NCBI GenBank assembly: GCA_945876935.1
Contig: CAMCQA010000005.1
Coordinates: 1-35,278, forward strand
DNA length: 35,278 nucleotides
Direction of reading: 5' to 3'
Origin: an uncultured Clostridia bacterium
GTDB taxonomy: Bacteria > Bacillota > Clostridia > Peptostreptococcales > Anaerovoracaceae
Positions 18,533 to 21,750 of this stretch are shown one piece after another. Within the stretch, counting starts at the first letter, position 1. Every line of letters starts with the position of its first letter. Both the position numbers and the translations under genes were made by a program. Under the pieces are notes generated by a model. It did not search any database and was not told the origin of the DNA. It saw nothing but the letters and a program-made list of their open reading frames with translations.

Positions 18533-18562
18533 TTGACATTAAGTATAAAGATAGTGTATCAT
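18533..18562 (+). promoter_or_regulatory. Promoter of the riboswitch-controlled surface-protein gene
   Basis: A perfect TTGACA (18533-18538), 18-base spacer and TATCAT (18557-18562). The transcript would begin near 18569 and carry a leader of about 300 bases. Confidence 0.7.
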
Positions 18563-18775: not shown

Positions 18776-18797
18776 AAAATAACTAACAACGTTGATA

Positions 18798-18835
18798 ATG
18801 CGGGCAGAATTTTTCTGTCTGCATTTTTTATTTTA
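18798..18835 (+). terminator. Riboswitch expression-platform terminator
   Basis: An 11-bp stem (18799-18809 with 18813-18823, one G-U pair) with TTT loop is followed by TTTTTTATTTT. It is located 33 bases before the ATG at 18868, so it must be bypassed for expression. This fits transcriptional control by the riboswitch. Confidence 0.88.
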
Positions 18836-18867: not shown

Positions 18868-21750
18868 ATGAAATTAAAGAAATTTTCTAAAAGTTTTGCA
18901 GCATGCCTATCGGCATTTTGTTTAGTTTCAGGTTCGATGAGCATACCAAATTCATACGGGGCAGAAGAAGCTGGAATTGTAACGAGATCAACTGTGGACG
19001 GATTTGGCTATGATGTAGTGCTGGAAGTTCTGGTAAATGAAGATGGAACTATAAAGGAAGTTAAAGATGCAGGAACTGAACCAGGCACATCAAATAAGAC
19101 TTTCTGGAGAACATTTTTAGAAGGAAATGGTCTGAAAAACTTTACTGGTAAGTCTAAATCAAATATTGATCAAGTAGATGCAGTTACTGATGCTACTGTA
19201 ACTAGCAAGGCTGCTAAGAATGCTGTTAAGCAAGCTTTGGCGAATGTAGATTATAAACCTGAAGAGCCAAGTGCACCAGCAGAGAAATACCCAAGACTAA
19301 CTCCAGGTGTAAAAAAAGGTGAGGCTGCTATTCCAGGTGAGTCATCTTCAAGAAAAATGAAAGTCATCGTAACTGTTGGAGAAGATGGAAGAATTTCAAA
19401 AGTAGAAAATAACGGCAGCTCTGTTTCTTTCTCAAAGAAGCAACAGTTAAAAGATTATTGGGGCAAATTTAAGGGAAGCAATTACTTTGTAGGAAAAACA
19501 CTAAAAGAAGTAATTGAAATGGATGTGCACAGTGGATATGGTGCTCACGTTCCAGGTAGCAGAGGTGAAGACTCTCCTTATGCACCACTTTCTTTAGGAG
19601 CTAGAAATGCAGTATTAAATGCTTTAGGATACGACTACACTATGAAGGAAAGCGATACAGATAAAGTAATTAATGTGGTATCAATCCTTAACAGATATAA
19701 CTATGAGCAAAGATTTGACGTAAGAATAAGTAAAGAAGGTAAAGTTGTATCGATAGTTGATAAGGGTACTGATGAAGAGAGCAATTATAAAACTTCAGAT
19801 AACTTACATAGAATTAAACTTTTTAATAAAGGTAAGGGATACGATAAGTACATAGGAAAGACTCTCTCTGAAGTAAAAGCTATGGATACTGGTAAACATG
19901 GTATAGACGGTGTAGCCGGAGCGACATATAATGCTACAGCAGTAAAAAGTGGGGTTATTAGCGCTTTTGAAAAAGGTGGTTTTGATACAAATGTAGAAGC
20001 CGCTCCGATTGGTGGAAGAATGTTCAAAGCCTCATCAACATCAGCCTATGATAATACTGGTAAGAAAATTAAAATAAGGGCTTACATAGATAATGACAAT
20101 AGAATCATCAAGGTATTAGATGATGGGAGCAATCCAGGAGAATCCCCTTGGACAGGTCTTCATCATGAAGATGATGCTTGGGATAAGTTTGCTAAGTACA
20201 GAGGATTTGCAAAGTTTAATGGAAAGAGTCTAGATGAAGTAAATGCTATGAATATGTCTAGTCCTGATAGTATAGATGTAGCGGGAAGACAAATTCAGGT
20301 ATCAGCTGCAGCTAAAGAAGCAGTAATCGCTGCTATCAATATGGCTATGTCTCATCCGATAGTAGATAAGGAAGCGTTAAAATCTGAAATTTCTAAGGCT
20401 AAAGAGTTCTTGAAAACAGTAGTAGAAGGAGAAGAGCCAGGTCAGTACCCATTAGGAACAATGGCAAAGCTACAGGCTAAGATAGGTCTTGCAGAGAAGC
20501 AGGTTAATAATGATATTGCATCAGAGGACGAAGTTAATACTGCTAAAAATGAGCTAAAAGCAGAAGTTGAAATGGCTAAGCAGTCAGTTATAAAAGTAAA
20601 TAAAGATGAATTGAAAGAAGCAATTTCAAAGGCAAAAGAGTTCTTGAAAACAGTAGTAGAAGGAGAAGAGCCAGGTCAGTACCCAGAAGGAACTACAGCA
20701 AAGCTACAAGAAAAAATTGATTTGGCAGAAACTCAGGCTAATAGTGAAATGGCATCAAAAGAAGATGTTGCATCAGCGAAGGCTCAGCTTGATGAAGCAG
20801 TTGAAATGGCTAAGCAGTCAGTGATAAAAGTAAATAAAGATGAATTGAAAGAAGCAATTTCAAAGGCAAAAGAGTTCTTGAAAACAGTAGTAGAAGGAGA
20901 AGAGCCAGGTCAGTACCCAGAAGGAACTACAGCAAAGCTACAAGAAAAAATTGATTTGGCAGAAACTCAGGCTAATAGTGAAATGGCATCAAAAGAAGAT
21001 GTTGCATTAGCGAAGGCTCAGCTTGATGAAGCAGTTGAAATGATTAAAGAAACAGTTGTTAAACCACTAATGGAAAGAGAGCTTAAATCGATAGAACATA
21101 AAGTGTCTGTAAAAGCTATGATGTCTGAAAAAGCGGAGCTTATGGTTAAAAATATTAATCTGGAAATTGATTCTTTAACTCTAGATAAGGCTTTAAAAGA
21201 AGATGGAAGGATATCAAAGGTAATTGGCACATACGATATTTCCATTATCAATGGTAAATATAAAGAGCCTATAGTTGTTTCATTTAATCTGGGTAACGAT
21301 GCTAATGGTAAGAAGATGGTTATTAAGCATGTGAAGCATGATGGCCAAGTAGAGTCTAAGGATACAGTTGTTGAGAATGGAACAGTTAGTATAACTGTAG
21401 ATTCTTTGTCTCCTTTTGCTGTTTCTGAGTTTACAGAAACTACAGAGCCAGATACACCGGCACCAGATCCAGATCCAGAGACTCCGGTAGAAGATCCGGT
21501 TCCAGCACCGAATAATCCTGATGTTGTAGATACAGATGTGGCAAATAACAATGATTCAAATATGGATATGTCAGATGATAATAATAAGGTTGAACCAAAT
21601 TCAAACAAAGTAATAAAGCCTATAGAAAAATCGAAAGAGTCTAAAAACACACCTAAAACCGCAGATAATAGAGATTTAGCAGTTGTTATGACTATTATGT
21701 TAATATCAGCAACTGTGGCAGTATTATTTAGAAGAAAGTTTAATAAATAA
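18868..21750 (+). CDS. B12-riboswitch-controlled wall-anchored protein with FMN_bind-like and FIVAR-like repeats
   Basis: A 960-residue exported protein. A signal peptide (1-32, SYGA end) is followed by four FMN_bind-like units at about 38-125, 150-255, 265-368 and 385-495. The flavinylation-type motif is partly kept in unit 1 (DAVTDATVTS, 104-113) and unit 3 (DGVAGATYNAT, 347-357). It is degenerate in units 2 and 4, so covalent FMN is uncertain. Three FIVAR-like repeats of 78 residues cover 501-734. A beta-rich domain (about 735-855), an Asp/Pro-rich linker (856-890) and a sorting signal (NTPKTAD 927-933, hydrophobic stretch, RRKFNK) finish the protein. The riboswitch implies expression when cobalamin is scarce. 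A role in corrinoid capture, reduction or adhesion is inference; no family name can be given. Confidence 0.88.
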   Translation: MKLKKFSKSFAACLSAFCLVSGSMSIPNSYGAEEAGIVTRSTVDGFGYDVVLEVLVNEDGTIKEVKDAGTEPGTSNKTFWRTFLEGNGLKNFTGKSKSNIDQVDAVTDATVTSKAAKNAVKQALANVDYKPEEPSAPAEKYPRLTPGVKKGEAAIPGESSSRKMKVIVTVGEDGRISKVENNGSSVSFSKKQQLKDYWGKFKGSNYFVGKTLKEVIEMDVHSGYGAHVPGSRGEDSPYAPLSLGARNAVLNALGYDYTMKESDTDKVINVVSILNRYNYEQRFDVRISKEGKVVSIVDKGTDEESNYKTSDNLHRIKLFNKGKGYDKYIGKTLSEVKAMDTGKHGIDGVAGATYNATAVKSGVISAFEKGGFDTNVEAAPIGGRMFKASSTSAYDNTGKKIKIRAYIDNDNRIIKVLDDGSNPGESPWTGLHHEDDAWDKFAKYRGFAKFNGKSLDEVNAMNMSSPDSIDVAGRQIQVSAAAKEAVIAAINMAMSHPIVDKEALKSEISKAKEFLKTVVEGEEPGQYPLGTMAKLQAKIGLAEKQVNNDIASEDEVNTAKNELKAEVEMAKQSVIKVNKDELKEAISKAKEFLKTVVEGEEPGQYPEGTTAKLQEKIDLAETQANSEMASKEDVASAKAQLDEAVEMAKQSVIKVNKDELKEAISKAKEFLKTVVEGEEPGQYPEGTTAKLQEKIDLAETQANSEMASKEDVALAKAQLDEAVEMIKETVVKPLMERELKSIEHKVSVKAMMSEKAELMVKNINLEIDSLTLDKALKEDGRISKVIGTYDISIINGKYKEPIVVSFNLGNDANGKKMVIKHVKHDGQVESKDTVVENGTVSITVDSLSPFAVSEFTETTEPDTPAPDPDPETPVEDPVPAPNNPDVVDTDVANNNDSNMDMSDDNNKVEPNSNKVIKPIEKSKESKNTPKTADNRDLAVVMTIMLISATVAVLFRRKFNK
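20368..21069 (+). repeat. Three tandem 234-bp coding repeats (FIVAR-like, 78 residues each)
   Basis: Units span 20368-20601, 20602-20835 and 20836-21069. Units 2 and 3 differ at a single base (TCA/TTA, Ser to Leu) over their first 207 bases, whereas unit 1 is clearly diverged. The pattern indicates a recent in-frame duplication of unit 2. Confidence 0.92.

Follow-up and report, generated by a model that had tools for sequence, protein, structure and literature searches.

A cobalamin riboswitch-led surface protein with lost and apparently retained flavin sites in its four FMN_bind-like units

Background

FMN_bind domains receive flavin mononucleotide (FMN) covalently from ApbE at a motif D-x-x-[S/T]-G-A-[S/T], with the FMN on the last residue (PMC12052999); a looser motif, DxxxGAT, has also been given (PMC10339131). 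In a fumarate reductase of K. pneumoniae, replacement of the motif Thr by Ala abolishes flavinylation, that of the Asp by Ala has a minor effect, and that of the Gly by Ala leaves ~50% (PMC12052999). In SaFMN3 the phosphate of the flavin touches the Gly of the motif at its backbone amide (PMC10339131). Here we describe a 960 residue putative surface protein with four FMN_bind-like units (U1 to U4), encoded behind a cobalamin riboswitch in a 35,278 nucleotide (nt) stretch, hereafter the window, of contig CAMCQA010000005.1 from an uncultured Clostridia bacterium (assembly GCA_945876935.1). A preliminary description, made from the letters of this DNA, had held that two of the four units have lost key flavinylation residues and that the fold may have been reused for cobalamin. 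We lean, with caution, toward a surface protein of vitamin B12 scarcity that serves corrinoid scavenging, has a flavinylated ancestry, and carries FMN on U3 and possibly on U1.

Results

The gene (18868..21750; forward strand, as are all features of the window that are given by coordinates here) is preceded on the same strand by both an aptamer and an expression platform. The aptamer (RF00174, 18579..18761) scores 67 bits against a gathering cut-off of 31.5 and covers model positions 1-189; between it and the gene lies an intrinsic terminator (18797..18825) with a 13-pair stem and T tract, a hairpin that also forms in the folded RNA. Terminator-like sites in the region number 2, against 0.1 in shuffles. 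Cobalamin would switch the gene off through this transcription-terminating riboswitch, so the protein would be made under B12 shortage. The cobalamin link proposed in the preliminary description is thereby strengthened, as it is by the recurrence of the pairing in other genomes (below). A promoter-like TTGACA-18-TATCAT (18533..18562) agrees with the consensus at 11/12 positions in a scan that is no evidence of function.

The genome (1.29 Mb, 67 contigs) holds nine matches to the cobalamin riboswitch family. Other riboswitches in it head genes for an ABC transporter of btuFCD-like type and an operon that includes a DUF4430 protein, and the window itself holds cbiG, hemB, hemL, cbiET and cbiA/cobB-type genes. 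For at least three of the riboswitches, nothing immediately downstream is an obvious B12 target (C11, L026 3758-3938, which scores 106 bits; C36, L029 3250-3379; C3, L031 6864-6996; C, L and G numbers are our labels for contigs, loci and genomes). On contig C38 (L022 321-8956) an adenosylcobalamin riboswitch heads a row of genes that includes a MoxR-like ATPase, a DUF4430 protein and, at its end, a surface protein with the same C-terminal module as the window protein.

Two units keep a recognizable flavinylation motif. In U1 (residues 34-128, 18967..19251, supported by unit profile and AlphaFold2 model) the translated motif VDAVTDATVTS (19174..19206) reads D104-A-V-T-D108-A-T110-V-T-S, which falls short of the strict D-x-x-[ST]-G-A-[ST] solely by the change of Gly to Asp108, as had been noted before, and places Thr110 at the acceptor position. 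In U3 (residues 265-371, 19660..19980, from the unit profile) the translated motif IDGVAGATYNA (19903..19935) reads D347-G-V-A-G351-A-T353-Y-N-A-T; Ala stands at the Ser/Thr position, so the strict motif is broken, and DxxxGAT is satisfied, with Thr353 equivalent to the acceptor. The earlier spelling of this motif, DGVAGATYNAT, and its change of Ser to Ala are correct, but the Asn that was placed before Ala-Thr in fact lies, together with this second Ala-Thr, downstream of an intact G-A-T353. CbFMN4 and SaFMN3 carry their FMN on the Thr equivalent to these two acceptors (PMC10339131).

By contrast, the motif is gone from U2 (residues 146-256, 19303..19635; profile, MAFFT and model), where a loop with His221 and His227 replaces it, and from U4 (residues 385-494, 20020..20349; profile and MAFFT). 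Aligned from the last helix by our own reading, the acceptor position holds Ala239 in U2 and Ile476 in U4; MAFFT places Gly and Ile there, and Ser or Thr appears in neither unit under any alignment. From the sequence, the loss of the acceptor from U2 and U4 is firm, in agreement with the preliminary description: neither has an ordinary flavinylation site, and hence neither should bear covalent FMN. The flavin-stacking aromatic residue is kept in U1 and U3, is Arg in U2, and aligns ambiguously in U4. The claim that two of the four units lost key residues thus holds for U2 and U4 and fails for U1, which departs by one residue, and for U3, which keeps the essentials. Flavin loss by U3, which retains D...GAT and the aromatic, is unlikely, and by U1 it is doubtful, judging from the recurrence of U1-type units and from the partial flavinylation left by Gly to Ala in the fumarate reductase (PMC12052999).

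Pfam recognizes FMN_bind in the whole protein in two stretches (54.5 bits, cut-off 22), and a profile built from nine units recovers U1 to U4 with per-domain E-values of 1.5e-30, 3.4e-23, 1.5e-36 and 1.7e-32, which are not independent because the four units are themselves rows of that profile. The fold was assessed in AlphaFold2 models of U1 and U2, made from alignments that combined units of the window with two from [Eubacterium] infirmum. Predicted local distance difference test scores were 90.8 for U1 and 81.4 for U2, falling below 50 in the U2 loop that replaces the motif. The best structural match of both models is SaFMN3 domain 2 (8p2a; U1: Z 10.7, root-mean-square deviation 2.3, 87 aligned residues; U2: Z 10.3, 2.5, 88), which points to an FMN_bind fold even in the motif-less unit. 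In the U1 model Thr110 (model residue 77) opens the last helix, like the FMN-bearing Thr of SaFMN3 (PMC10339131). With either model, Foldseek alone prefers IscU chains to FMN domains; VIA-align places FMN domains first and IscU-type chains next, at Z of about 7-8. The margin by which the FMN_bind fold leads is thus clear for U1 but narrower for U2.

The worn units could instead have been reused for direct cobalamin binding, all four, or U2 and U4 together, being flavin-free corrinoid modules. Such a cofactor swap, as first proposed, is possible; it would fit the riboswitch upstream of the gene, the fold that U2 retains without a flavin site, the paired His residues of U2 (221/227) and U4 (432/433), which could ligate cobalt, and the presence of another motif-less unit at this genome's heme locus. 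The flavin-site residues kept in U3 and U1 speak against it, no orthologues were found that might show the His pairs to be conserved, and we know of no corrinoid bound by an FMN_bind fold, a point on which no dedicated search was made; we consider this explanation improbable.

How unusual these motifs are was gauged in a census of 160 distinct FMN_bind-type domains (158 readable at the motif, 2 not), a biased sample in that it comes from loci already fetched and found by a profile that knows the motif. The 158 divide into 102 canonical domains, 35 with another G-A-[ST], 19 with Gly replaced ahead of A-[ST], and 2 with the motif lost, both from the window (U2 and U4); two more motif-less units, from contig C13 of the same genome and from G002, lie outside the 158. 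Among the Gly-replaced domains Thr is present in 19/19, Asp in 17/19, and the stacking aromatic in 18/19 (the nineteenth is truncated), against 96/102 canonical and 33/35 other G-A-[ST] domains with the aromatic. Thr belongs to the definition of this class, whereas Asp and the aromatic do not; because both would drift had the Gly change ended flavin use, their retention suggests that U1-type domains may still be flavinylated. Loss of the U3 motif was considered and rejected, because the Asn falls after Thr353 and Ala precedes the Gly in 14 of the 158 domains. In some proteins with several FMN_bind units (L113, L158, L159, L160, L217), the final or an additional unit has the motif Gly changed to Asn, Tyr or Thr.

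Flavin machinery is available in the genome, as a search suggested in the preliminary description found. The apbE gene appears as two pieces at contig ends (C49/C45; L001, L002) that match profile positions 2-172 and 171-265 and probably, by this fit, form one gene across an assembly gap; the genome also holds an rnfG-containing cluster and encodes a canonical flavoprotein of three units together with its membrane partner.

Cobalamin riboswitches recur directly ahead of FMN_bind surface genes in two further members of the family and, below threshold, in a third. In G322 a riboswitch (84.6 bits) lies 391 nt ahead of the first FMN_bind unit, and on contig C34 of G007 one of 82.0 bits precedes a 632 residue FMN_bind protein with VDSVTGATVTS. 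A sub-gathering match in G121 (25.2 bits) precedes a gene with VDTITSAT that, as in the window, has an NlpC/P60-like gene nearby; no riboswitch was found at E 0.1 before the G014 orthologue of this gene. In G109 the riboswitch is at operon distance: it leads a row that includes a BtuC-like permease, and the FMN_bind gene follows the BtuC-like transporter genes. Separately, contig C24 of G007 (L225 3852-3917, 4250-8920) has a weak partial aptamer (32 bits) ahead of a surface protein and a multi-FMN chain with canonical motifs and a membrane protein.

Adjacency was evaluated over 22 genomes, picked for the unit type or as same-genus or other comparators and not for riboswitches, by counting which of 88 FMN_bind genes lie within 1500 nt downstream, on the same strand, of any of 71 above-threshold riboswitches. 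Two pairs were found (G322, G007 C34) versus 0.125 expected by uniform placement (chance of at least two, 0.007), and three versus 0.156 when 13 weaker riboswitches were included (84 in total; chance of at least three, 0.0006), values that rest on rounded genome sizes and on 88 places obtained by dropping extra units per protein by hand, with the window uncounted.

FMN_bind surface proteins also accompany heme uptake genes. In G014 ([Eubacterium] infirmum NCTC12940) and G121, a two-unit protein (SQAT, SNAT) lies ahead of Shp-type, substrate-binding protein, permease and ATPase genes, with Shp (PF11545, 4.2e-46) and IsdE (391.9 bits, cut-off 298.65) recognized in G014. In G728 a canonical-motif FMN_bind protein adjoins NEAT, Shp and IsdE genes, and on contig C13 of the window's own genome a motif-less unit is divergent from Shp- and IsdE-type genes; the FMN_bind-like surface gene there (L119 1091-1699 and below) is broken by a stop codon. 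NEAT matches in L108, L111 and C13 fall under the Pfam cut-off, and for the NEAT-like or DUF4430-like domains seen by eye in L114, L163, L223, L224 and L226 Pfam gave no confirmation within the limits applied. Electron-transfer loci of G121, G238 and G330 have canonical units followed by one Gly-replaced unit. That related proteins recur next to B12 uptake genes and next to heme uptake genes suggests that surface flavins are connected with the scavenging of the vitamin or of heme.

Units of this type are sparsely distributed: the unit profile matched 16 of 197 genomes of the family, and a revised profile matched 20 of 393 genomes at the level of the order and 10 of 391 at that of the class, in overlapping sets. 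In a tree of 39 hand-chosen rows, U1 groups with the unit behind the G322 riboswitch and unit b of the [Eubacterium] infirmum heme operon (support 94/82, inner branch 97/88), U2 and U4 are sisters (97/95), and the canonical unit of G220 falls beside the motif-less units of C13 and G002 (98/96), from which we infer that the motif was lost more than once, from canonical ancestors. A single clade of degenerate units was accordingly rejected: by well-supported branches Gly replacement took at least 3 changes (6 in the tree) and loss at least 2. Contrary to a refuting condition named in the preliminary description, perfect motifs are not found throughout the close homologues, G322 having VSGAT without an Asp in register, and SHAT. 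GAT motifs are kept, by contrast, in further surface proteins linked to B12 or heme (G007, G109, G220, G728).

Losses of this kind raise the further explanation that all four units are non-functional relics of a decaying multi-flavin protein. The certain losses in U2 and U4 fit such decay, as do the interrupted frame of the G322 gene and the stop in the C13 relative, but the window gene is an intact 960 residue frame with riboswitch, terminator and anchor, and the U1 model is of high confidence. We therefore regard general decay as very improbable.

The remainder of the protein comprises a FIVAR repeat region in three stretches (20350..21054, limits approximate; PF07554, 29.8 bits, cut-off 29.2), a C-terminal module (21055..21477, limits approximate) that recurs at 32% identity (E 5.9e-16 and 1.0e-13) in surface proteins encoded elsewhere in the genome, on contigs C2 and C38, and a sortase-type anchor read by eye (21646..21747; NTPKTADNRD, a hydrophobic stretch, RRKFNK). 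The genome has a single sortase gene (53.3 bits). The signal-peptide-like N-terminus was likewise recognized by eye, the frame itself by open reading frame and Pfam. An 830 residue surface paralogue in the same genome (L021 4217-6709) combines one D-x-x-SGAT unit with this C-terminal module. The neighbours of the window gene are a G5/NlpC-P60 gene and unrelated genes, without Shp or Hts, and the next downstream genes lie on the opposite strand, so it is probably the sole gene of its transcript. A Shr-type NEAT heme receptor was considered and rejected, with no NEAT match by Pfam up to E 10; DUF4430 (PF14478, a transcobalamin-like B12 binder) likewise had no Pfam match up to E 10. Of 68 stretches from GTDB contigs, none could be confirmed as related to the protein over its whole length, nor could any in phages, and an orthologue search over 61 related genomes gave partial matches only.

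Discussion

If the corrinoid-scavenging reading is correct, a wall-anchored protein made when B12 is short would descend from surface proteins with ApbE-flavinylated FMN_bind domains. The flavin site of U1 and U3 appears essentially complete, with FMN probably on Thr353 of U3 and possibly, at reduced efficiency, on Thr110 of U1; the sisters U2 and U4 would have lost the acceptor, most simply before their duplication, and might serve as spacers or binding surfaces. Products of the rnf genes and the canonical three-unit flavoprotein with its membrane partner could feed in electrons, which the flavin would hand from the cell's flavin chain to a captured corrinoid, where cobalt reduction would loosen the upper ligand or the grip of a carrier.

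This reading must be tempered by several observations. The Pfam scan recognizes no B12-binding domain in the protein, the G322 gene behind the riboswitch has a broken reading frame, and, given the phosphate contact with the Gly amide in SaFMN3 (PMC10339131), Asp108 might hinder flavinylation of U1. No orthologue of the whole protein that might reveal selection on Thr110 and Thr353 turned up in the genomes searched. Of the 71 riboswitches in the 22 genomes, 69 have no FMN_bind gene within 1500 nt, 7 of the genomes have FMN_bind genes and zero riboswitch matches, and the unit type also occurs in multi-unit proteins of G227 and G234 and in loci for electron transfer. Its presence is therefore no specific mark of B12.

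The B12 link may be regulatory only, in a redox or adhesion protein that keeps its degenerate units as structural spacers and might, for instance, offer electrons another way out once B12-dependent fermentation stops. Occurrence of the unit type in electron-transfer loci agrees with this, as do the want of a recognized B12-binding domain, the weak partial aptamer ahead of a canonical flavin chain on contig C24 of G007, and the FIVAR repeats, which are common in adhesins. We nonetheless judge it rather unlikely, since other riboswitches of the same genome lead a btuFCD-like transporter and a DUF4430 operon, and the FMN_bind gene of G109 follows BtuC-like transporter genes.

A bolder extension, which we offer as speculation and think decidedly improbable, is that FMN_bind is a little-noticed tetrapyrrole-scavenging module of Gram-positive bacteria, in which surface FMN reduces the metal of cobalamin or heme, U1 and U3 bearing flavin while U2 and U4 hold the corrinoid. 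We found no prior report, in the open-access literature searched, of FMN_bind surface proteins paired with cobalamin riboswitches or Shp/IsdE heme operons, and look-ups in PMC8238504, PMC11334425 and the NEAT review PMC7815599 gave no mention of such a pairing. Extracellular B12 capture by Gram-positive anaerobes is poorly known, and the recurring pairings supply concrete, testable candidates; together with the heme operons they ask whether surface flavins reduce captured tetrapyrroles. The natural variants at the motif Gly (Asp, Asn, Ser, His, Lys, Gln, Tyr, Thr) are material for probing the strictness of the ApbE motif.

Comparison with known systems

The U1 and U2 models share the fold of SaFMN3, CbFMN4, RnfG and NqrC (PF04205), with 8p2a and 8p2b as best matches followed by RnfG or NqrC; the Thr before the last helix of U1 and the stacking aromatic of U1 and U3 are further likenesses. 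The window units differ from these in the Asp for Gly of U1, the Ala for Ser of U3, the missing acceptor of U2 and U4, and an extra stretch, W..F....GL..F.GK. Multi-flavinylated extracytosolic proteins (Meheust et al. 2021, PMC8238504) likewise combine several FMN_bind units in one secreted protein with a genomic apbE, whereas here a single gene stands behind a cobalamin riboswitch, with no adjoining membrane electron-transfer partner and with half of its units dead. In relation to the Shr-Shp-HtsABC and Isd heme relays (PMC2266757), the nearest kin of U1, infirmum unit b, occupies the Shr position before Shp and IsdE genes, while the window protein has neither a NEAT domain nor Shp/IsdE neighbours. 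With BtuG/BtuH (PMC8941943) and DUF4430 proteins it shares cobalamin-riboswitch control and a surface location; it differs from the latter in having no DUF4430 match.

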